Shown piece by piece: positions 4,200 to 54,466 of a stretch of 64,000 nucleotides of DNA (positions within the stretch are counted from its first letter, which is position 1; each line of letters starts with the position of its first letter). The position numbers and the translations under genes are program-made. The notes beneath the pieces are model-generated. The model had not been told where the DNA came from. It saw nothing but the letters and a program-made list of their open reading frames with translations, and did not search any database. Location: positions 2,415,501 through 2,479,500 of the forward strand of contig NZ_CP049783.1 of assembly GCF_015710975.1 (NCBI RefSeq). The letters run 5' to 3'. This stretch comes from Paenibacillus polymyxa (GTDB lineage Bacteria; Bacillota; Bacilli; Paenibacillales; Paenibacillaceae).

Positions 4200-4967
4200 A
4201 TGATTATCAACCACAATATTCCTGCATTAAACACTCACCGTAACATGGGTATGAATAATGCTGCAGCAAGCAAAAACATGGAGAAACTGTCTTCCGGTCT
4301 GCGTATCAACCGCGCTGCTGATGACGCTGCTGGTCTCTCTATCTCCGAAAAAATGCGCGGACAAATCCGTGGTTTGGAACAATCCCAACGTAACGTTCAA
4401 GATGGTATTTCTTTTGCACAAACTGCTGAGGGTGCAATGAACGAAGTATCCTCCATGCTTTCTCGTATGAAAGAATTGAACGTTCAAAAGCTGAACGGAA
4501 CATACTCTACTAGTGATAAGAGCAACATCAACATGGAGCTTAACGCACTAGGATCGCAAATCGATAGCATCATGAAAAACACAACATTCAACGGAATCAA
4601 AATCACTTCTAACGTAAAAGTACAAGCTGACGATAAAGCCTTCACGATTACAGTTAGTGGTGTTGCTACAACAGGATTCACTGGTCTGAAATCTTCTTCC
4701 ACATTGACAAATGTAAGTGATGCTATTGAAAAAGTAGCTACACAACGTGCTAAATTGGGTGCTGTTCAAAACCGCTTGGAATATACCTCCAACAACCTGG
4801 GTACTACAGTTGAGAACCTGACAGCTTCCGAATCCCGTATTCGTGATACTGACATGGCTAAGGAAATGGTTACTTTGTCCAAAAACAACATCTTGCTGCA
4901 AGCTTCCCAATCTATGCTGGCACAAGCAAACTCTGCGCCACAAGGCGTACTGTCCCTGCTTCGTTAA
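4200..4967 (+). CDS. hag: Flagellin (Hag/FliC)
   Basis: This is the filament subunit, 255 residues. The N-terminal D0/D1 helix begins MIINHNIPALNTHRNMGMNN and includes LSSGLRINRAADDAAGLSIS. The C-terminal D1/D0 begins near NRLEYTSNNLGTTVENLTAS and ends in the typical LAQANSAPQGVLSLLR. The central part (~residues 140-180) is very short and D2/D3 domains are missing, so this is a minimal flagellin like that of Bacillus. Serine and threonine in the short variable region are the likely glycan acceptors, given the Maf and pse genes downstream, but the sites cannot be assigned. Codon use is strongly biased, as expected for a highly expressed gene. Confidence 0.97.
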   Translation: MIINHNIPALNTHRNMGMNNAAASKNMEKLSSGLRINRAADDAAGLSISEKMRGQIRGLEQSQRNVQDGISFAQTAEGAMNEVSSMLSRMKELNVQKLNGTYSTSDKSNINMELNALGSQIDSIMKNTTFNGIKITSNVKVQADDKAFTITVSGVATTGFTGLKSSSTLTNVSDAIEKVATQRAKLGAVQNRLEYTSNNLGTTVENLTASESRIRDTDMAKEMVTLSKNNILLQASQSMLAQANSAPQGVLSLLR

Positions 4968-4992
4968 AATTTTGGAAAGCAAACGAATTATT

Positions 4993-5022
4993 AAAGGCTC
5001 TGCATTTTGCAGAGCCTTTTTT
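4993..5022 (+). terminator. Rho-independent terminator after hag
   Basis: A perfect 12-base stem, AAAGGCTCTGCA (4993-5004) with TGCAGAGCCTTT (5008-5019), a three-base loop and a T-run. It is a strong terminator for an abundant mRNA. Confidence 0.95.
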
Positions 5023-5042
5023 GTTTTTTATATGATTTTTCA

Positions 5043-16742: not shown

Positions 16743-16809
16743 TCATCCCCGGCATAGCCGACCTACATAATTGGTAAGATGGTTAGCAATGGATAACGCG
16801 CTAGCAACT

Positions 16810-16838
16810 GCCCTGGAATATATTCCAGGGCTTTTTTA
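16810..16838 (+). terminator. Rho-independent terminator after the cold-shock gene
   Basis: GCCCTGGAATA (16810-16820) and TATTCCAGGGC (16821-16831) form a perfect inverted repeat followed by TTTTTTAT. Confidence 0.92.
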
Positions 16839-16851
16839 TGTTTTTTTACAT

Positions 16852-16886
16852 AAATAAAAAAGCCCCTTACCTAATGGTAAGGAGCT
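16852..16886 (-). terminator. Rho-independent terminator of the giant reverse-strand gene
   Basis: On the reverse strand, CCTTACC/GGTAAGG with a four-base loop (stem at ~16874-16880 and 16863-16869) is extended by partial GAGC/GGCT pairing. It is followed by a T-run (A-run at 16852-16860 on the plus strand), just after the stop at 16908. Confidence 0.85.
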
Positions 16887-44202: not shown

Positions 44203-44719
44203 TCCGTAAAGAAAATTATTCTCTTGCACAGCAACGGAATGCTGTGTAAAATCAGATTTTAAGAATATTTGCCAGCTATGTTTTCAAAGGCACCGTTCGC
44301 GGTGTCTTTTGTGTTTTCCGAGAGGGTTGAAAGATTTATGATCGGAATAATCATGAACTACATAGAATTATTGGAAGTATATCGTCTACGATGTTTGACT
44401 CGCGTAGTTCTATAGACCCATTCATACATTAGTGTGAAAGTTTCTAGAATTTACATTTTTGTATACTACGCCTACTAGGATTATGGTAGAATAGCACTAA
44501 GTTTTTCATTGAATTACCAATTTAGTAGAACGAGAAGCATATGCGATAAATCATTGTCAAGTGTTTAATGGCTTTTTCGACCAGGGGAATTTCATAAATG
44601 TGTAAATGAAGAGCTTAAATGAGAACACAGGTGTGTCCTGGTTTCGGGAGAACGGCTGGTAACAATATGGAAATAGCGACATAGCAAAAGACAGAGTCGG
44701 GACGATCCAGGGAGGTATT
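44203..44719. other. Intergenic region between argH and the glycosylation cluster
   Basis: 517 bases without a gene. A hairpin ACAGCA/TGCTGT (44231-44247) has no T-run. A TTCG-loop terminator lies at 44289. The remaining ~400 bases form a long AT-rich leader to the coiled-coil gene. I saw neither a clear sigma-A promoter nor a c-di-GMP riboswitch consensus in it. Confidence 0.5.
44289..44312 (+). terminator. Rho-independent terminator of the arg operon
   Basis: GGCACCG (44289-44295) pairs with CGGTGTC (44300-44306), including one G-U pair, around a stable TTCG tetraloop, followed by a T-rich tail. Confidence 0.8.
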
Positions 44720-44971
44720 ATGAGAACTAAACGAACGACGCGTCAGCTAAAGAGCGCTTGGATCGGTTATCGCGCTTCTGACGCCGATGAATTGGTATCC
44801 TCATTGCATGAGGAGCGAATCCAGGCAGAGAAGTTGCTACGTGAGGAGCGGGAGCTTTTCCACGCGGCGCTGGAGCGGAAGAAGCAGCGGGATGCCGAGT
44901 TAAAGCAGCTGCTTGCGGACGCGCTTGCGGAAGAGCGGCGCTGGATTGAAAGGGCGGGAATTCATGGGTGA
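44720..44971 (+). CDS. Small coiled-coil protein, function unknown
   Basis: I do not recognise this 83-residue protein. After a basic start (MRTKRTTRQLKSAWIGYRAS) residues ~25-78 are strongly charged and helical with Glu/Arg/Leu heptads (EERIQAEKLLREERELFHAA), predicting a coiled coil. There is no signal peptide or membrane segment. GGGAGG at 44710-44715 gives a good ribosome site. Its end overlaps the next gene by eight bases, and that gene also begins with a coiled coil, so a direct partnership with the MshEN glycosyltransferase is likely. It may be a regulatory or scaffolding subunit. Confidence 0.75.
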   Translation: MRTKRTTRQLKSAWIGYRASDADELVSSLHEERIQAEKLLREERELFHAALERKKQRDAELKQLLADALAEERRWIERAGIHG

Positions 44972-47423
44972 CAAGCTTAGGTGGCAGGTTGGAGGAGTTT
45001 CAATTCGCCAAACCAAGAGAAGAATAAAAGAAGAGCGTCAGCGAATCGAACAACTGCAACAGCAGCTAGAGGCTCAGCGTGCAGAGCAGGCCCCGATACT
45101 GTACAAGCTTGATTTTCATATCGAAGAGTTGGAACGGCGACTGCAGGATACAGAACTTCGTATTCAGGCTTTACAGAATGCCAATGATACAGCAGCAGCT
45201 GTGGAACAATTGCTGGATGAAGGAATACAGGATGGACAGGTGCAGGAGGCGCAAGTCCAATATGCATCTGGGCAGGAACAAGCAGCGGCAGGAGCAGCTA
45301 TAGGTCTTGCTTCCAGTATCCCTGGTGCAGAAGGCGGAGAGGCGGCAGCAGGAACGCAGACCGGACGAAACGGCAAGGCCCGTCTGGGAGATCAACTGGT
45401 GGAGAACGGGATGATTACCCGGGATCAGCTGACAGATGCTATCCGCAACCAGAAGCGTTACGGTGGCAGACTGGGCGATATTCTTGTAGAGATGGGCTTC
45501 ATTACAGCTGAGCAGCTACAAGAGCAAATTGACGGTGATGAGTCCAAGGAGAGACTGGGCGATATGCTGGTTCGTTCCGGCTATATTACACCGGAGCAGC
45601 TAGAGCGTGCGCTCGAGTTCCAGGCGAAGAGCGGCGGACTGCTCGGCGACATCTTGCTATCATTGCAAATGTTGGAGCCAGCGGATTTGTACCGCGCGAT
45701 TGCTACACAGAACCGAATCGGGCGTATTGGTGAGGAGTTGGCGCTGGATGCGGCGTACAAGCTACCTGAGCAAGTGGCCATGGCTTATGGCGTGGTCGTC
45801 ATCCACCAATATATGAACCGCTATATTGTAGCGGTCAGTGATCCACTGCCAGAGGAGCGACGCTTGAAGCTGGAAGAAATTCTGGGTATGCCGGTAGAGC
45901 AAGTACTTGCAACGAAGGAAGAGATGGAGCAGCTCTGGGGTAAAATCTACGGTGAGGAAATGATGCAAGAGAGCACGACCGGGCTATTGGAAAAAGAACC
46001 GCATAATTCGGCGCGGACCACCTTTACCAAGGGACAGCTCTGGGTGTTTGCAGCTATGGGAATGATCACACTGCTTGGCCTCCTCTGGAACAGTTGGAAA
46101 ACGGTGCTGATCATTAATATGATGATTCAGCTGTTTTATTTTGCTATGACGCTATTCAAATTTGGTATTATCTATCTCGGTTCCCGGCGTGGGGCGCAGC
46201 TTCGCTTCACGAAGGAAGAGGTAGACGCCATGGATGAAAAAAGACTGCCGATCTATACGATTCTTGTTCCGATGTATAAGGAAGCGGGCGTGCTTCCGAT
46301 GTTGTTGCGGAATTTGGAACAGCTGGATTATCCAAAGTCCAAGCTGGATGTACGGCTGCTGATCGAAGAGGACGACATTGAGACGATTGAGCTGCTACGG
46401 GAAATGAAGCTGCCAGCGTATTACACGACACTGGTCGTGCCCGACGGCTTGCCGAAAACTAAGCCGAAGGCATGTAATTATGGACTTATTCGGGCCCGCG
46501 GCGAATTTGTCGTCATTTACGATGCTGAGGATCGCCCCGATGCTGACCAACTTAAAAAGGTCATTGCAGCGTTTGATTCACTGCCTGAGAATTATGCGTG
46601 TATTCAAGCGAAGCTCAATTATTTTAACAGCACACAAAATTTGCTGACCCGCTGGTTCACACAAGAATACAGTATGTGGTTCGAATTGCTGCTGCCAGGA
46701 ATTATGCAGTTAGACACCCCCATTCCGTTGGGCGGTACGTCCAATCATTTCCGGGTATCTGTATTGAAAGATATCAATGCGTGGGACCCCTATAATGTAA
46801 CCGAGGATGCCGATCTGGGCATTCGTCTGTATAAAGGTGGTTATAAAACGGCCATTGTCGATTCCCGCACATGGGAGGAAGCGAACAGCCGCGTGGGCAA
46901 TTGGATTCGTCAGCGTTCACGTTGGATCAAGGGATATATGCAGACATGGCTGGTTCATATGCGCAATCCGGTTAAGCTGGTGCGCGAAGTGGGCTGGAAA
47001 GGATTTTTCGGTTTTCAGGTGATGATTCTGGCGACTCCGATGTTGCCATTGCTAAACCCGATTTTTTGGGGCTTGCTTATTTTATGGTTTGGCTGGGAGT
47101 TGTCCTTTATTCCCAAGCTGTTCCCGGGTTATGTGTACTACTTGGCCAGCGCGGAATTTTATATCGGTAACTTTCTGTTCGTATTCAGTAATGTGGCCGG
47201 CATGTATTGGGTCATCGGTGAGCTGGAAGAACGCGGTGAACGAACATTTTCATACGCGATGGTCAAATATGGGCTACTCTCGCCGTTATATTGGGTACTT
47301 ATGAGTATAGCTGCGATAAAAGCAGCTTGGCAGCTTATAACCAAGCCGTTCTATTGGGAAAAGACGACGCATGGTCTGACCGATATGCATGACTTGGATG
47401 ATACCCCGGCACAGTCCTCCTGA
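44964..47423 (+). CDS. NfrB-like GT2 glycosyltransferase with MshEN c-di-GMP-binding motifs
   Basis: An 819-residue membrane glycosyltransferase. Residues ~15-75 are a coiled coil. Four MshEN-type motifs (RLGDxLVxxGxITxxQL...Q) lie at ~140-163, 169-189, 197-220 and 226-249; such motifs bind c-di-GMP in MshE. Two membrane segments follow (~357-405). The GT2 domain has YDAEDRPD (519-526), TED (613-615) and QRSRW (650-654), the cellulose-synthase set, then further membrane segments to ~790. E. coli NfrB combines the same two modules. The likely role is c-di-GMP-activated polysaccharide synthesis. ATG 44964 is chosen for GGGCGGGA upstream and overlap with the preceding stop. Polymer identity is unknown. 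Confidence 0.88.
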   Translation: MGDKLRWQVGGVSIRQTKRRIKEERQRIEQLQQQLEAQRAEQAPILYKLDFHIEELERRLQDTELRIQALQNANDTAAAVEQLLDEGIQDGQVQEAQVQYASGQEQAAAGAAIGLASSIPGAEGGEAAAGTQTGRNGKARLGDQLVENGMITRDQLTDAIRNQKRYGGRLGDILVEMGFITAEQLQEQIDGDESKERLGDMLVRSGYITPEQLERALEFQAKSGGLLGDILLSLQMLEPADLYRAIATQNRIGRIGEELALDAAYKLPEQVAMAYGVVVIHQYMNRYIVAVSDPLPEERRLKLEEILGMPVEQVLATKEEMEQLWGKIYGEEMMQESTTGLLEKEPHNSARTTFTKGQLWVFAAMGMITLLGLLWNSWKTVLIINMMIQLFYFAMTLFKFGIIYLGSRRGAQLRFTKEEVDAMDEKRLPIYTILVPMYKEAGVLPMLLRNLEQLDYPKSKLDVRLLIEEDDIETIELLREMKLPAYYTTLVVPDGLPKTKPKACNYGLIRARGEFVVIYDAEDRPDADQLKKVIAAFDSLPENYACIQAKLNYFNSTQNLLTRWFTQEYSMWFELLLPGIMQLDTPIPLGGTSNHFRVSVLKDINAWDPYNVTEDADLGIRLYKGGYKTAIVDSRTWEEANSRVGNWIRQRSRWIKGYMQTWLVHMRNPVKLVREVGWKGFFGFQVMILATPMLPLLNPIFWGLLILWFGWELSFIPKLFPGYVYYLASAEFYIGNFLFVFSNVAGMYWVIGELEERGERTFSYAMVKYGLLSPLYWVLMSIAAIKAAWQLITKPFYWEKTTHGLTDMHDLDDTPAQSS

Positions 47424-47446
47424 ATATGAAGAAAGAAGGAGCAAGA

Positions 47447-48454
47447 ATGGAGACCAAAAATCCTTTTTTATCCGTCGTCATTCCCATGTACAATGAAGGC
47501 TCACACCTTGAGCGTTCACTTAAGGTGATTGATGGGGTGCTGTCTGTCGTCACCTCACATTATGAGCTTATTATTGTAGATGATGGTTCCAAAGACGATA
47601 CGTGGCTCAAGTTGTCCGAATTGTCCCGTCGTATGCCCTCTTTGCTCGCACTCCGGCTGAGTCGGAATTTTGGTAAGGAGCTGGCGTTGTGCGCAGGTTT
47701 GGAAAATGCATCTGGCGATGCGATCATTGTCATGGACGGTGATCTGCAGCATCCTCCTGAGATGATCGGGGAAATGGTGCGTTTATGGCAGAATGAAGGT
47801 TATGATTTAGTTGAATGTGTGAAAGAATTTCGGGGAGAAGAGTCTGTAGGCAAAAAGCTCGGAGCTTCTTTGTTCTATGCAACCTTGAATCGTTTGACGG
47901 GCTTTAATCTAAAGGATGCCTCCGATTATAAGCTGCTGGATCGAAGAGTGGTGGATGCCTGGATGGCGATGCCAGAGCGTATGCCGTTTTTTCGCGGGAT
48001 GACCGCCTGGCTCGGTTTTCGTAAAACCCAGATTACATTCCGGGTGGCTCCACGAGAAGAGGGTCCAAGCCGCTGGAGTCCGTTAGGCCTATTTCGATTG
48101 GCTGCGGAAGCGATCGTTTCGTTTTCGACGGTACCTTTGCGGGTAGTGAGTTTAATGGGTCTCATTTTCATGCTGATTTCGGTCGTGTTGGGGATTCAAA
48201 CCTTAATGCACAAAATAACGGGTGACGCTGTGACCGGGTTTACCACTGTCATTTTACTGCTTTTGATTATCGGTAGTGTACTTATGCTGTCGATTGGAGT
48301 GGTAGGAGAATATATTGCCGCCATATATCACGAAGTCAAAGCCAGACCCCGTTATCTAATTGCAGATAAACGGGCGAATGCTGACCGACTGTGGGTGGAT
48401 AGGGAGTTTAATCAACATGATCAGACGTTCGTATCTAAAGTATCCAATCATTAA
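47447..48454 (+). CDS. GtrB/DPM1-like undecaprenyl-phosphate glycosyltransferase
   Basis: This enzyme would load a sugar onto undecaprenyl phosphate on the inner membrane face. From ATG 47447 (AAGGAG at 47436-47441) it has 335 residues. The GT-A domain shows LSVVIPMYNEGSHLERSL, LIIVDDGSKDDTW and IIVMDGDLQHPPE (DxD-type metal site). Two C-terminal membrane segments follow (VVSLMGLIFMLISVVLGIQT; VILLLLIIGSVLMLSIGVVG). This architecture is that of GtrB, CsbB and YkcC proteins of three-component glycosylation systems. The gene overlaps gtrA by 38 bases. Confidence 0.9.
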   Translation: METKNPFLSVVIPMYNEGSHLERSLKVIDGVLSVVTSHYELIIVDDGSKDDTWLKLSELSRRMPSLLALRLSRNFGKELALCAGLENASGDAIIVMDGDLQHPPEMIGEMVRLWQNEGYDLVECVKEFRGEESVGKKLGASLFYATLNRLTGFNLKDASDYKLLDRRVVDAWMAMPERMPFFRGMTAWLGFRKTQITFRVAPREEGPSRWSPLGLFRLAAEAIVSFSTVPLRVVSLMGLIFMLISVVLGIQTLMHKITGDAVTGFTTVILLLLIIGSVLMLSIGVVGEYIAAIYHEVKARPRYLIADKRANADRLWVDREFNQHDQTFVSKVSNH

Positions 48455-48836
48455 ATACGGTATTGTCGGACTGCTGGGTACAGGCATTCACGTCGGTGTA
48501 CTTGTGCTGCTGGTGGAGCTGTTTGCAATACCTGCAGTAACGGCTACTACCATAGGCTTTATCGTTACGTTGCTCGTTTCGTATGTGCTGAATCGTAACT
48601 GGACGTTCGAGCCTACCGGCGAAGGGAGCCGCACTCAGTTTCTTAAATATTTATTGGTCTGCACCTGCGGCTTGCTCCTGAATGCCGCTCTGATGTACGT
48701 AACCATTCACTGGATTGGTTGGTCGTATCTGATCGGTGAAGTCTTAACTACCATCATCGTGCCAGTTCATAATTATATCTGGAACCGCTATTGGATCTTC
48801 TCCGTTCCGCAACAGCGTCAGAAAGAGGTTTCATGA
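48417..48836 (+). CDS. GtrA-like flippase protein
   Basis: GtrA proteins are small four-helix membrane proteins thought to flip undecaprenyl-phosphate sugars. From ATG 48417 it has 139 residues; an upstream in-frame extension would overlap the preceding gene further and was not used. Four hydrophobic segments are clear: IIKYGIVGLLGTGIHVGVLV, TATTIGFIVTLLVSYVLNR, YLLVCTCGLLLNAALMYV and LIGEVLTTIIVPVHNYIWNR. NRNWTF is a family motif. The stop overlaps the next start (ATGA at 48833-48836). Confidence 0.9.
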   Translation: MIRRSYLKYPIIKYGIVGLLGTGIHVGVLVLLVELFAIPAVTATTIGFIVTLLVSYVLNRNWTFEPTGEGSRTQFLKYLLVCTCGLLLNAALMYVTIHWIGWSYLIGEVLTTIIVPVHNYIWNRYWIFSVPQQRQKEVS

Positions 48837-50434
48837 TCGTAAGGAAACATGGAAAGTTGTTGTCATTGTTTGCTTGTATTGCTGCTCTAGAATTAGCCGT
48901 GGGTGTTTATTTTGCATGGCATCTTGGCTATATGCATACCGATGCGCTCAGTCGAGTAGCAAATGCATTTTATGTACTGTATAGTCGTGATCCGCATTTG
49001 GGTGCTATTGGGTTTGTGTGGAATCCACTACCGAGTTTGATGGAACTCATTGTACTGTTGTTCTATCCATTGTTTCCCGCACTCGCTTCCCACGGGCTGG
49101 CAGCAGTGATTGTGAGCAGCCTGTTTGCTGGGGCGAGTGCAGCATTATTGTACGGGACGGGAAAAGAACTAGGGCTTCACGGTGTAACTAGTTTGCTAAT
49201 TGCGCTGTTATTTTCACTGAATCCGTTTATGTTTCTGTTTGGCTTCAACGGCTTGAGTGACTCGCCCTATATCTTTTTTATCCTGTTGACAGTGAGTCGA
49301 TTCTGTATGTGGCTTAAGGATCGCAAGGCGGCGAATTTGATCGTATCCGGTTTTGCGCTTGCATTGGCATTTTGGGTTCGCTACGAAGCAGTCCCACTGG
49401 GGGTTGCGCTGGCTTTGGGCGTATTACTGACGATTTTTTTTCTGCATCGGTGGCGTACAAACAGAGAGAACGTTAAAACGCAATTGTCTTTAAAAGAGCG
49501 CCTGTACAAGGTAGAAGCGACATGGCTTCTATTGTTGCTGCCGCTTGTCTTTTCCGGTTTGCTGTGGCTCTTTTTTAACTGGATTATCATGGGCGACCCG
49601 CTTTACTTTTTACGCTCGCAATATTCCAATTCCACACAATCAGCGGCTTTGCTGGAGGATCAACGCTTTGTAGAAATGTTTGCTCACCCTATGCTGATGC
49701 TAAAGTTTGTCGGGCAACGGACCTTATGGTATGCGGCTCCGTTGATTGCCGTTTTGCTTATACGCCTATTGGACAAACGTCTGTGGAGTTGGAGCACATT
49801 AACGCTGCTGGCTATTTTTTTATCAGTACCTGGGCTCCAGCTTTTACTGATGCTTAAGCATTCTTCGTTTGGCTGGTTCCGATATTTTATGTATGTATTT
49901 CCGATTACGGTTGCTTGGCTGCCGTATGAGCTTAGTCTGTTGAAGGGGAAAATGCGGGGGATCGGAATCTCACTGGTAACGGCAGGAATGTTGGCAACAG
50001 CAGGCTTGTTATCCTACGCACTGACGAATCCCGCGATTGCGGCGGATGAGCATAGCTATCTGACGCATAGTGGCAATGAAAGCTATACTCGACAAATTGT
50101 TGAACGGAAAATAGGGTCATGGCTGGATGAACATTATGGTTCATCTCTCATTTTGACAGATTCTTATACGGCCTATCCGATTATTTTGAGCAGTAAAATT
50201 CCGAAGAAGTTTATGATAACGAGTGATTATGATTTTGGGAAATCTTTAACGGATCTGCCCGCTTCCAAGGTGGATTATGTTTTGGTTACGCGCTTGGTAG
50301 AAGGGGTACCGCTGGATCAGGTGAACCGGAACTATCCTGATCTGTTTGAAAAGGGGGCGCCATGGGCCTCGTTGGTGCATGATTTTGACGGGGAGTGGCG
50401 ATTGTACAAGATAGAGCATGAAGAACTGCAATAA
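48833..50434 (+). CDS. GT-C-fold membrane glycosyltransferase (first copy)
   Basis: A 533-residue polytopic protein with ~11-12 membrane segments and a C-terminal extracytoplasmic domain (~410-533). The first outside loop has GYMHTDALSRVANAFYVLYS; the Asp resembles the catalytic Asp of GT-C enzymes (GT39/GT83 type), which take sugars from undecaprenyl phosphate and transfer them outside the membrane. It overlaps gtrA by four bases and completes a GtrB-GtrA-GT-C set. The acceptor (teichoic acid, exopolysaccharide or protein) is unknown. It is closely similar to the next gene along its whole length. ATG 48833 follows GAAAGAGG. Confidence 0.82.
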   Translation: MIVRKHGKLLSLFACIAALELAVGVYFAWHLGYMHTDALSRVANAFYVLYSRDPHLGAIGFVWNPLPSLMELIVLLFYPLFPALASHGLAAVIVSSLFAGASAALLYGTGKELGLHGVTSLLIALLFSLNPFMFLFGFNGLSDSPYIFFILLTVSRFCMWLKDRKAANLIVSGFALALAFWVRYEAVPLGVALALGVLLTIFFLHRWRTNRENVKTQLSLKERLYKVEATWLLLLLPLVFSGLLWLFFNWIIMGDPLYFLRSQYSNSTQSAALLEDQRFVEMFAHPMLMLKFVGQRTLWYAAPLIAVLLIRLLDKRLWSWSTLTLLAIFLSVPGLQLLLMLKHSSFGWFRYFMYVFPITVAWLPYELSLLKGKMRGIGISLVTAGMLATAGLLSYALTNPAIAADEHSYLTHSGNESYTRQIVERKIGSWLDEHYGSSLILTDSYTAYPIILSSKIPKKFMITSDYDFGKSLTDLPASKVDYVLVTRLVEGVPLDQVNRNYPDLFEKGAPWASLVHDFDGEWRLYKIEHEELQ

Positions 50435-50539
50435 TTTTATTGTATTTTAGTGCATCGTAGCGGAGGGAAGGATACAGCTGGAGGGCGTAAGCTCCCTACA
50501 GCTGCACCACCGCAAGAAGTTTGAGGGGGAACGAGAGGA

Positions 50540-52174
50540 ATGTCCTTTCGCAAATGGTCTGCAAGCAGATGGATGGCTATAGGTCTGTTTGTGTTTATAC
50601 TTGCATTGGAGCTATCTGCGGGCATCTATTTCAGCTATGTTCTGGGATATATGCACACAGACGCGCTCAGTCGGGTAGCTAACGCCTTTTATGTGCTGTA
50701 CAGCCGCGACCCGCATCTGGGCGCTATCGGATTTATCTGGAATCCACTACCCAGTCTTCTGGAAATGGTGATTCTATTGCTGTATCCAATCTTTCCGGCA
50801 TTAGCCTCCTATGGATTGGCTGCTGTTATTCTGAGTGCTACCTTTTCTGCTTTGACCGCTATGCTGCTATATCGGGCGGGTGTCAGAACAGGGATTAGCT
50901 CTAGGATGAGCTTGCTGCTAGCTTTGTTGTATGCACTGAATCCGTTTATTTTACTATTTGGTGCCAACGGTCTAAGCGATTCGTTATACATATATTTCAT
51001 TATGATGACGGTGATTGAATTTGCGCTGTGGCTCAAGGACCGCATGACGGCAAGTCTGATTGTTTCTGGGTTAGCACTTGCCATGGCGTTTTGGACTCGT
51101 TATGAAGCGGTGCCTCTGGGCGTGGCCATGGCTGTTGGCGTGGTCTTGGCGATTTTATTTCTTCATCGCAACTTGGGTAGACGTGAACTGGCCTTGCGGG
51201 AAAAGCTACATAAAGTCGAGGCAACCTGGTTGCTTCTTCTGCTCCCCGTGGTCTTTTCCGGACTGTTGTGGATTTTCTTTAACTATCTTATTATGGGGAA
51301 CGCTTTTTATTTCCTGAATTCAGAGTACTCGAACACGGCCCAATCGGCAGAGCTGCTGAATGATGATAAATTTGTAGAGATTTTCTCCAATCCGCTGGTG
51401 GCTTTGAAGTTTATTGCATCCAAAACTATCTGGTATTCTGTACCGTTGTTTGCTATTTTGTTCATTCGTCTGTTGAGTGGACGCTTGTTCCGGTGGGGAA
51501 CCTTGATTATTTTGTTATTGTTCCTGTCTGTACCAGGCTTGCAATTTTTACTTATGATGCGGCAATCCTCGTACGGTTGGTTCCGCTACTTTATGTATGT
51601 ATTCCCAATTACCGTAGCCTGGTTGCCTTATGAGTTGAGCCAGCTTCAGGGACGTTGGCGGAGGGCGGCCTTTGGTCTAGTGTCCGTCAGTCTGCTACTT
51701 ACCGCTGGATTACTCTCCTATGCGTTGACTCGCCCGGATATTGCACCGGATGAGAATAGCTTTCTCACACGCACGGGGAATGTAAACTATGTGAGACAAG
51801 AATCAGATCGTAAGATTGCCGTTTGGCTGGATGAGCATCTGCCGAAGTCTACCATTATGACAGATTCGGCTTCAGCCTACACGATGATCGTCTACAGCCA
51901 ATATCCCAAACGTTTTCTGATCACCAGTGATTATGCGTTCAATAAAGCATTAAGTTATCCGCAGGACAATCATGTGGACTATATCCTTGTACCTAAGATT
52001 ATGTCAGGCATGCCGCTGAGTAAGATTAATATGGTATATCCGAATTTATATGAGCATGGTGCCCCATGGGTTCAGCTTGAACGTGAGTTTAACGGCGAGT
52101 GGCGCCTGTATAAAGTGTTGCCTAAGGCACTAACTAATGGATCTCTAACGACGGAGACAACGACTAATCCCTGA
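50540..52174 (+). CDS. GT-C-fold membrane glycosyltransferase (second, paralogous copy)
   Basis: This 544-residue protein is a clear paralogue of the preceding gene. Shared stretches include MHTDALSRVANAFYVLYSRD, PHLGAIGF, KVEATWLLLLLP and WFRYFMYVFPITVAWLPYEL. Even the C-terminal soluble domain (MTDSASAYTMI, then GEWRLYKV) is conserved. It has ~11-12 membrane segments and the same loop-1 Asp. The duplication is diverged in hydrophobic stretches, so it is not recent. Different acceptor or donor specificity is a reasonable inference. GAGAGGA precedes ATG 50540. A hairpin (CAGCTG...CAGCTG) lies in the 105-base gap before it. Confidence 0.82.
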   Translation: MSFRKWSASRWMAIGLFVFILALELSAGIYFSYVLGYMHTDALSRVANAFYVLYSRDPHLGAIGFIWNPLPSLLEMVILLLYPIFPALASYGLAAVILSATFSALTAMLLYRAGVRTGISSRMSLLLALLYALNPFILLFGANGLSDSLYIYFIMMTVIEFALWLKDRMTASLIVSGLALAMAFWTRYEAVPLGVAMAVGVVLAILFLHRNLGRRELALREKLHKVEATWLLLLLPVVFSGLLWIFFNYLIMGNAFYFLNSEYSNTAQSAELLNDDKFVEIFSNPLVALKFIASKTIWYSVPLFAILFIRLLSGRLFRWGTLIILLLFLSVPGLQFLLMMRQSSYGWFRYFMYVFPITVAWLPYELSQLQGRWRRAAFGLVSVSLLLTAGLLSYALTRPDIAPDENSFLTRTGNVNYVRQESDRKIAVWLDEHLPKSTIMTDSASAYTMIVYSQYPKRFLITSDYAFNKALSYPQDNHVDYILVPKIMSGMPLSKINMVYPNLYEHGAPWVQLEREFNGEWRLYKVLPKALTNGSLTTETTTNP

Positions 52175-53311: not shown

Positions 53312-54466
53312 ATGGGGAAAAAGTTAAGAACCACAATTACAGGTGTACTGAGTACAGGTCTTATTCTTAGCGCATTCAGCGCAGCGGCAGCTGCTCCTCT
53401 AACTACAAGCGGCCATTGGGCAGGAGATCAGGTGCAACGCTGGTCAGCTACAGGGCAATTGGATGGGGCGGTAAAACCGGATGCGGCGATCACACGCGCA
53501 GAATTTATCGTTCTTCTGAACCGCAGCTTGGGAACGTTCACACAGGAACTTCCAGCAGTGACAGACGTAACGTATGCAGGTGGTGTGAAAATCAACGGTA
53601 ATGGAAGCAGAACGTTCACAGATGTTCCGGCATCCCACTGGGCATACAACGAACTGACTAGTGCCGTAAATGCTGGCTACATAAGCGGCTATGCAGGTAA
53701 CAAGCTCAAACCAAATGGTAAGGTAACACGTCAGGAAGCAGCTGCGATTATTGGCAAAGCTATTGGGCTGACTGCGGGTAACGCAGCAGATGTTACTAAA
53801 TTCATTGACTCCGACAAAATTGGATCTTGGGCGAAGAAAAGTGTAGCGGCTGTTGCGGAGCAAAAAATCATCAACGGTTATCCGGATGGTAAATTCCAGC
53901 CACTGAAGCCGCTGACTCGTGCAGAGGCGGTTGCTATTCTGGATGCTGCATCCGGTTATAACCTGAGCCCTGTTGATAATCTGACGACGACTCCTGGTGG
54001 AACGGTAACGGATTCCACATACAGTAACGTGACCAATTCCACTTACGGTAATACGTCGACTACTTCTGGCAGTGAAACAGAAGATAGCAGCACAAGTACT
54101 AGCACAGATAGTACAACTACTACGGACAACTCTACAACAACAGAGACAAGCACAGAGACAACTACAAATACCGATACGACTACAGACACAGCTACTGACG
54201 CGGATGCTACTTCGAATGCACTGAAAGTCAACGATGTGTACGATGGTGAAGGTACAATTACAGGAACAGCAAAAGCTGGTTCCACAGTAACTGCCTATTC
54301 CAACGATCTGCCTATCGGCAGTGCAGTAGCCAAAGATGACGGCACATTTAGCATCAGTGTTCTTACTCAAAAAGCGACAGTTAGACTGGTGATCAAAGCT
54401 AAAGATACAGACGGCCATGAAAGTGAGCCTGTAGAAATCTCGGTTTTGAGTAAACGCAGCGAGTAA
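53312..54466 (+). CDS. S-layer homology (SLH) domain surface protein
   Basis: A 384-residue secreted protein held on the cell wall. Residues 1-28 are a signal peptide (basic start, SAFSAAAAAPL cleavage region). Three SLH domains follow (~33-78, ~100-155, ~162-210), each with the wall-polymer motif TRAE or TRQE (ITRAEFIVLL, VTRQEAAAII, LTRAEAVAIL). Residues ~220-300 are a Ser/Thr-rich linker, probably extended or glycosylated. The end (~300-380) is a Big/Ig-like domain (GEGTITGTAKAGSTVTAYSN). SLH domains bind pyruvylated secondary wall polymer, made elsewhere. The partner or enzyme activity is not evident. GGGAGGAA precedes the ATG. Confidence 0.93.
   Translation: MGKKLRTTITGVLSTGLILSAFSAAAAAPLTTSGHWAGDQVQRWSATGQLDGAVKPDAAITRAEFIVLLNRSLGTFTQELPAVTDVTYAGGVKINGNGSRTFTDVPASHWAYNELTSAVNAGYISGYAGNKLKPNGKVTRQEAAAIIGKAIGLTAGNAADVTKFIDSDKIGSWAKKSVAAVAEQKIINGYPDGKFQPLKPLTRAEAVAILDAASGYNLSPVDNLTTTPGGTVTDSTYSNVTNSTYGNTSTTSGSETEDSSTSTSTDSTTTTDNSTTTETSTETTTNTDTTTDTATDADATSNALKVNDVYDGEGTITGTAKAGSTVTAYSNDLPIGSAVAKDDGTFSISVLTQKATVRLVIKAKDTDGHESEPVEISVLSKRSE

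Follow-up and report, generated by a model that had tools for sequence, protein, structure and literature searches.

A c-di-GMP-linked MshEN synthase and its dedicated GT-C partner in Paenibacillus polymyxa: a candidate exopolysaccharide system with its own outside-decoration arm

The window analysed here is a 64,000-nucleotide stretch of the Paenibacillus polymyxa genome (contig NZ_CP049783.1, positions 2415501-2479500; host genome 5.96 Mb), and a run of six genes within it, at window positions 44720-52174, had been proposed in a sequence-only reading to form a system in which cyclic di-GMP (c-di-GMP) switches on a polymer that is then decorated outside the membrane. All six open reading frames (ORFs) are present and intact, lie on the + strand and overlap or are closely spaced, as had been described, with Pfam and NCBIfam matches among them; in order they encode a small coiled-coil protein, a family 2 glycosyltransferase (GT2) with MshEN motifs, GtrB, GtrA and two GT-C enzymes. 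Comparison of related loci showed that the MshEN-GT2 synthase has a dedicated partner in this GT-C family, a linkage newly recognised here.

Six genes and an MshEN-coupled synthase

The first ORF (44720..44971; ORF list and alignment of relatives) encodes an 83-residue coiled-coil protein with a GY start and overlaps by 8 bp the gene of the 819-residue MshEN-GT2 membrane synthase (44964..47423, with its ATG at 44964), which matches at 99% identity a P. polymyxa protein representing a cluster of 152 sequences. A gap of 23 bp, or of 2 bp if the alternative start at 47426 is used, leads to a 335-residue polyprenyl-phosphate glycosyltransferase of GtrB type (47447..48454; sequence matches), and a 38-bp overlap to a 139-residue GtrA-family membrane protein (48417..48836), the presumed lipid-sugar flippase. 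GtrA overlaps GT-C 1 (48833..50434, 533 residues) through ATGA, and 105 bp further on follows GT-C 2 (50540..52174, 544 residues); both enzymes match Pfam PMT_2 (1e-9 and 3.3e-7). The two GT-C genes (48833-52174) are tandem copies, 61-62% identical, and GT-C 1 is absent in P. farraposensis (L006) and in one P. terrae (L008).

The synthase consists of long N-terminal helices (coiled coil), two MshEN_N bundles, one MshEN_C part, a processive-type GT2 domain and transmembrane (TM) helices. Pfam matches were Glyco_trans_2_3 (1.5e-25) and MshEN (1.6e-8), the NCBIfam model 'c-di-GMP_motif, MshE-related' matched two stretches with 125 bits, and the MshEN part matched PilF and MshE chains of known structure by sequence; no PilZ match was found in the synthase. 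The structural model includes an extra TTC codon ahead of the true ATG, and model residue n is therefore protein residue n-1; it contains two four-helix sets of MshEN_N kind at 142-190 and 199-250, mostly with a predicted local distance difference test score (pLDDT) of about 90. Four MshEN half-motifs begin at model residues 141, 170, 198 and 227 and form two pairs, each with 24+5 spacing. The four motifs claimed earlier are thus present as half-motifs, but two of them are degenerate when graded against the relaxed motif printed in the available text of PMC5013675. Half-motifs 1 (RLGDQLVENGMITRDQLTDAIRNQ, 45381..45452) and 3 (RLGDMLVRSGYITPEQLERALEFQ, 45552..45623) are canonical by motif alignment; half-motif 2 (45468..45539) keeps RLG and has Asp in place of the final Gln, and in half-motif 4 (45639..45710) Leu replaces Arg and Gln replaces Gly, with the final Gln kept.

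The catalytic part carries the D, DxD, TED and Q(Q/R)xRW signature of processive GT2 enzymes of the BcsA and hyaluronan synthase type. In an alignment of 75 sequences (the window copy and cluster members longer than 600 residues from 73 of the 79 related loci introduced below, the omitted loci being L069, L070, L072, L075, L077 and L079), the DxD-type motif DAED (46521..46532) is kept in 74, with A changed to G in one, and TED (46800..46808) and QRSRW (46911..46925), both singled out in the sequence-only reading, are identical throughout. The GT plus TM fold of the model is like that of BcsA; a VIA-align comparison matched mainly the catalytic part, 368-809, and the absence of MshEN chains from its list excludes nothing. 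That the synthase is a polymer-making enzyme is considered highly probable.

A GT-C family linked to the synthase

Counts were made on the best 79 distinct loci among 473 relatives from one collection scan, after removal of the two loci of the genome itself. They come from Paenibacillus, Cohnella, Clostridium, Sporolactobacillus, Desulfosporosinus, an Acetobacterium bin, Chloroflexota, Nocardioides and other bins, one of which is labelled Planctomycetaceae. A profile search found GT-C within 6 kb of GT2 in 78 of the 79 loci, from Bacillota to Chloroflexota and Actinomycetota, and the single miss (L065) arises because the contig stops just past GT2; within the same distance GtrB was found in 57 loci, GtrA in 52, ManC in 43 and BcsB in 19, so that conservation of the gtr genes with GT2, on which the earlier proposal depended, holds in relatives. 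Because these loci themselves supplied the members for the GT-C profile, the window GT-C was also used as a single BLASTP query, and it matched 76 of the 79 (not L018, L065 or L076). GT-C lies on the strand of GT2 in 70 loci, and the gene orders include GT2-GtrB-GtrA-GTC, GT2-GTC-GtrB-GtrA, GTC-GtrB-GT2-GtrA and ManC-GTC-GtrBA-GT2-BcsB.

Whole-genome samples agreed with the co-occurrence that had been put forward for checking. With GT2 scored at E<=1e-60 and GT-C at E<=1e-30 in a family sample and 1e-20 in a phylum sample, the genomes holding GT2 and those holding GT-C coincided, being 6 of 59 in the first sample and 4 of 299 in the second (genome G000 is among the 6 and among the 4, and the phylum scans scored at most 3 and at most 4 candidates per genome), and the distance between them was at most about 1.6 kb every time. 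The distribution is patchy, neither gene being found at these thresholds in 53 of the 59 and 295 of the 299, the former including four genomes of the same genus. Among 113 genomes of another class 4 had GT2, and 3 of the 4 also had GT-C. Genome G354, with GT2 and no GT-C at 1e-20, was considered as a counter-example to pairing and set aside because an ORF scoring 84 bits with the GT-C profile lies directly downstream of GT2; this ORF is divergent and has no Pfam match, the case resting on the in-house profile, and relatives of BcsB (Pfam 2e-17) and ManC lie upstream.

These data bear on a different view of the locus, in which GT2 makes a c-di-GMP-dependent polymer and GtrB-GtrA-GT-C are independent neighbours that glycosylate teichoic or lipoteichoic acid, as CsbB-GtcA-YfhO systems do. 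GtrB/GtrA/GT-C triads are indeed known in wall-polymer modification, 22 of the 79 loci have no GtrB within 6 kb, and in 8 loci GT-C stands on the opposite strand. Yet in the two genome samples the GT-C family is confined to genomes with MshEN-GT2, it stays linked to GT2 despite the varied gene orders, both arms share one same-strand riboswitch-headed run in four loci described below (L038, L048, L050, L053), and the pair is kept in Nocardioides and Chloroflexota although their wall polymers differ; independent neighbours are therefore judged unlikely. The wall polymer of the sequence-only reading is not supported, since the synthase fold and the presence of BcsB and ManC beside it in relatives point rather to an exopolysaccharide.

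For the enzyme itself, 80 of 84 sequences, the two window copies among them, retain the loop-1 Asp noted earlier (D41), and the GT-C model (mean pLDDT 93.9) shows a TM fold with this acidic residue in loop 1, its Foldseek matches including oligosaccharyltransferase (1.9e-5), ArnT (3.4e-5) and DPY19 (1e-4), with further fold matches to ALG9, AftA and PMT4. The GT-C profile had no match among PDB sequences at E<=0.1. Oligosaccharyltransferases, ArnT, DPY19, ALG9, AftA and PMT4 all take lipid-linked sugars, and a lipid-linked sugar is very likely the donor here as well. The acceptor is rather likely to be the synthase's own polymer. It could instead be a protein, for example the adjoining S-layer homology (SLH) protein or a partner of the synthase, glycosylated in a PMT-like manner for matrix assembly; such a role would suit the PMT_2 match, the presence of oligosaccharyltransferase, DPY19 and PMT4 among the fold matches, the SLH protein encoded at 53312-54466, and the 250 bits scored by GtrB with the model of PgfS, an enzyme of protein glycosylation, a score below the cut-off of 500. 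However, no acceptor family shared among the loci was seen, where no cluster beyond GT2, GT-C, GtrB, ManC and GtrA exceeds 19 of 79, and similarly close in fold are ArnT and AftA, whose substrates are glycolipid or glycan, so that protein glycosylation appears improbable. In the Acetobacterium bin (L061:726-3413) a DUF772 transposase-like region stands in frame before the GT-C ORF, downstream of a c-di-GMP-I aptamer, and could reflect gene fusion, insertion or faulty assembly.

The supplier of the lipid-linked sugar is more variable. The window GtrB is closest to Synechocystis GtrB sll0501 (241 bits over residues 8-307 of 335), with 145 bits to ArnC and 77 to the P. furiosus dolichol-phosphate mannose (DPM) synthase, and the GtrB of L012 behaves alike (221 bits to Synechocystis GtrB, 65 to the DPM synthase). 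The Clostridium drakei supplier, the form covered by this comparison among those fused to a GtrA domain, instead scores 226 bits over its full length with DPM synthase and 64 with GtrB. Fused suppliers occur in 13 loci and separate ones in 44. The presence of two supplier types beside the same GT2/GT-C pair argues for a requirement of GT-C for a lipid-linked sugar, one that varies by lineage. In Paenibacillus sp. RC67 (L024:12293-14860) GT-C and GtrB are fused in one 855-residue ORF. The GtrA assignment comes from a match to GtrA_DPMS_TM (PF04138; 5.9e-29, 101 bits against a cut-off of 26.1) in a scan of a longer ORF starting at 48360.

Sugar supply was approached through ManC. The two ManC-like proteins scanned had TIGR01479 as best model, under its cut-off, and L054 encodes a phosphoglucomutase/phosphomannomutase besides its ManC-like protein, which together suggest a supply of GDP-mannose. 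ManC accompanies 3 of the 13 fused, 32 of the 44 separate and 8 of the 22 missing suppliers, and since it occurs also where GtrB is not local, it may feed the synthase GT2. Feeding of GtrB by ManC in Paenibacillus is not favoured, because by sequence the window GtrB goes with the sll0501 type and not with the DPM-synthase type. The chances that the product contains mannose are put at about even. In one further locus (L085:1018-2430) the ManC relative is split over two ORFs and is possibly broken.

As to the borders of the run, an intrinsic-terminator-like hairpin after argH (44286..44309, + strand; consensus match only) divides it from the upstream argGH, and downstream lie an esterase gene on the other strand, the SLH gene, a VanW-type gene on the other strand and finally ftsEX; the labels arg, VanW and fts were assigned by reading of the ORFs. 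In Paenibacillus macquariensis (L009:2919-15350) a tandem duplication of ManC-small ORF-GT2-GtrB, followed by GtrA and GT-C, likewise sits between argGH and vanW, and ManC may have been lost from this site by the P. polymyxa group. The small coiled-coil protein has counterparts of 65-101 residues with a GY start that overlap or touch the GT2 start in 29 of the 79 loci by gene calls, and by BLASTP L006 has one too. All 15 aligned copies share the Gly, and nearly all share the Tyr and a Val; in the window copy the Val column holds Ala. Charged helical ORFs lacking the GY start occupy the same place in six loci (L030, L046, L049, L051, L052, L057), and those of L065 and L070 look unrelated. Membership in DivIVA was considered and rejected, 7 of 10 scanned proteins giving sub-threshold matches and the window copy none; the protein is probably a scaffold or positioning factor.

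Control by c-di-GMP and the proposed mechanism

Rfam riboswitch scans covered 41 of the 79 loci together with L088, with 38 loci outside the scan, and a c-di-GMP riboswitch was found at the operon head in 5 of the 41. In Cohnella laeviribosi (L038) a c-di-GMP-II aptamer, the sole match of this class in that genome, directly precedes a small ORF, GT2, GT-C, GtrB and GtrA; in two Clostridium loci (L048, L050) one directly precedes ManC, GT-C, GtrB-GtrA, GT2 and BcsB, and in L053 one directly precedes GtrB-GtrA, GT-C, GT2 and BcsB. The fifth, of class c-di-GMP-I, stands at the start of L061, where about 620 bp and a 60-residue ORF separate it from the GT-C ORF. Three Clostridium genomes with operon aptamers have 4, 5 and 2 c-di-GMP-II matches over the cut-off. 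In a Chloroflexota locus (L079) two c-di-GMP-II-GAG matches lie slightly over the cut-off, one (4919-5038) ending about 40 bp before an ORF for a DSDGDG-repeat protein and the other (16773-16885) past the operon; L088 gave no c-di-GMP riboswitch. The operon-head riboswitches are independent evidence, in some relatives, for a single c-di-GMP output shared by GT2, GT-C and the lipid-sugar supplier, and the earlier proposal of a c-di-GMP-linked, outside-decorated polymer gains support, particularly from C. laeviribosi, where the aptamer heads the same gene set.

In the window no Rfam RNA reached its gathering score and no riboswitch was found; upstream of the operon the sole match at E<=1, to SNORD49, was below the gathering score and was discarded. 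For P. polymyxa, then, the protein route alone is available for control by c-di-GMP. The host genome has 8 GGDEF domains over the cut-off, none of them inside the window. GGDEF-family clusters stand near GT2 in 8 of the 79 loci (one member of each of the two clusters was scanned), and at L016:6586-7494 and L072:9688-10560 such membrane proteins adjoin BcsB near GT2, a position like that of YdaK and PssE; by our own reading the L072 protein has RYDQE in place of GGDEF and may be a receptor or inactive.

The synthase is very probably a c-di-GMP binder. Its MshEN part might instead be a purely structural or dimerisation domain, leaving P. polymyxa with no c-di-GMP control, and the failure of half-motifs 2 and 4 to fit the relaxed motif of PMC5013675, the lack of a riboswitch in the window and the loss of binding in XpsE through several comparable changes of MshEN-motif kind, according to the source text available, would accord with that. 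Against it stand the canonical half-motifs 1 and 3, the two matches of the family model, the 8 GGDEF domains of the host, and E. coli NfrB, which by our own reading has one perfect half-motif and one that fails the same relaxed motif, and which binds c-di-GMP with a dissociation constant of 1 uM (PMC8669469, from the portion available). Loss of binding is considered quite unlikely.

Taken together, the locus probably encodes a synthase-dependent exopolysaccharide system that is under c-di-GMP control and has an outside-decoration arm of its own. In the proposed mechanism c-di-GMP would bind the two MshEN bundles arranged in tandem at the cytoplasmic N-terminus of GT2 and release polymerisation, and GT2 would convert nucleotide sugar into a polysaccharide threaded through its own membrane channel, as in BcsA. 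GtrB would transfer a hexose to undecaprenyl phosphate, GtrA would bring the loaded lipid over to the outer leaflet, and GT-C 1 and GT-C 2 would put the sugar onto the emerging polymer outside the membrane, with the small coiled-coil protein, translated just ahead of GT2, as a probable scaffold.

Several observations weigh against this reading. PcManGT ties with BcsA in fold comparison with the GT2 model, so that the fold of the synthase is no proof of a polymerase, and half of the MshEN half-motifs are degenerate. GT-C is found within 6 kb on the opposite strand alone in L022, L025, L027, L037, L056, L058, L059 and L070, and GT2 and GT-C are thus not always in one operon; likewise the lipid-sugar arm is not always local, given the 22 loci (some of them short contigs) without GtrB, and the flippase role of GtrA is suggested by family membership. 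ManC is absent at the P. polymyxa locus, three relatives lying elsewhere in the genome, and BcsB had no match in the whole host genome, with positive controls in E. coli and B. subtilis, so that the export-subunit argument rests on relatives only. c-di-GMP riboswitches are absent from the window and from 35 of the 41 scanned loci, the simple-draw probabilities take no account of shared ancestry, and neither binding nor enzymology nor transcript data turned up for any of the members. The conservation and riboswitch data leave the model of a c-di-GMP-switched, outside-decorated polymer, which is the best available, considerably stronger than when it was proposed.

More broadly, the loci could represent an unnamed, widespread class of c-di-GMP-gated exopolysaccharide systems in Gram-positive and related bacteria, a proposal given roughly even prospects. 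The class would have an obligate pair of N-terminal-MshEN synthase and dedicated GT-C; the messenger would gate the synthase and also, through a riboswitch, the entire operon of certain lineages; interchangeable suppliers would set the side-chain sugar, and the backbone would possibly be mannose-based and fed by ManC. Control of matrix polymers by c-di-GMP is well known in Gram-negatives and thinly in Gram-positives, and the conserved unit would tie c-di-GMP to backbone synthesis plus side-chain addition. It would also offer a candidate c-di-GMP receptor-effector, apart from the known pep clusters, for the plant-associated and biotechnological P. polymyxa group, and a proposed job for a GT-C family previously without one.

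Comparison with known systems

GtrA-GtrB-GtrC (O-antigen) and CsbB-GtcA-YfhO are lipid-linked-sugar modification systems that resemble the locus in combining a polyprenyl-phosphate sugar synthase, a small flippase-like GtrA and an outside-acting GT-C. In contrast to both, the module here is tied to a predicted c-di-GMP-gated polysaccharide synthase, and its GT-C is of PMT_2 type and not YfhO. The cellulose system BcsA-BcsB-BcsG, in which BcsG adds phosphoethanolamine to cellulose, resembles the proposed system in its c-di-GMP-gated processive GT2 fold, in decoration outside the membrane and, for 19 of the 79 loci, in BcsB, but here the predicted sensor is MshEN, with no PilZ match, the genome has no BcsB, and a GT-C glycosyltransferase would take the place of BcsG.

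NfrB-NfrA-YbcH of Escherichia coli, which makes the N4 phage glycan receptor, is similar in that NfrB is a c-di-GMP-gated exopolysaccharide synthase combining MshEN with a GT2 bearing DxD, TED and QxxRW. The NfrB-like label given earlier therefore holds for the shared motifs and fails for the layout, GT2 being N-terminal and MshEN C-terminal in NfrB, whereas MshEN is N-terminal and doubled in the window synthase, which scores 58 bits with the NCBIfam NfrB model against a cut-off of 1170. Around nfrB in MG1655 (586000-596000) no gene is annotated GT-C, GtrA or GtrB, in contrast to the window, and a general Pfam scan of the neighbouring ORFs, made without an NfrA profile search, gave no NfrA match. 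The available part of an NfrB survey places the family mainly in proteobacteria, with rare Gram-positives such as Eggerthella.

The nearest Gram-positive systems met in the literature, as far as the source texts extend, are YdaJKLMN of Bacillus subtilis (PMC13274460) and PssA-E of Listeria monocytogenes (PMC4125290, PMC5039582), which are likewise c-di-GMP-controlled exopolysaccharide operons and to which the GGDEF-family neighbours of some related loci add a likeness. According to the accessible portions of these papers, Pss has a GT2 synthase with a BcsB-like subunit (PMC4125290) and its polymer is poly-N-acetylmannosamine decorated with galactose (PMC5039582). The c-di-GMP sensor is a separate protein there (YdaK, PssE), whereas MshEN is fused to the synthase here, and a dedicated GT-C/GtrA pair is not mentioned in the parts available of PMC13274460 and PMC4125290. 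The window genome has no BcsB, and the window locus has no separate degenerate GGDEF receptor; the available text of PMC10374906 describes a GT2 synthase that lacks BcsB in another Gram-positive, Romboutsia. In the open-access literature, as far as its texts were available, no MshEN-GT2 with GtrA, GtrB and GT-C is described; subscription papers lay outside this scope, and priority is not established. In summary, the locus is a variant of the NfrB/Yda/Pss kind, set apart by an N-terminal, doubled MshEN region on the synthase and by its GT-C and Gtr partners.
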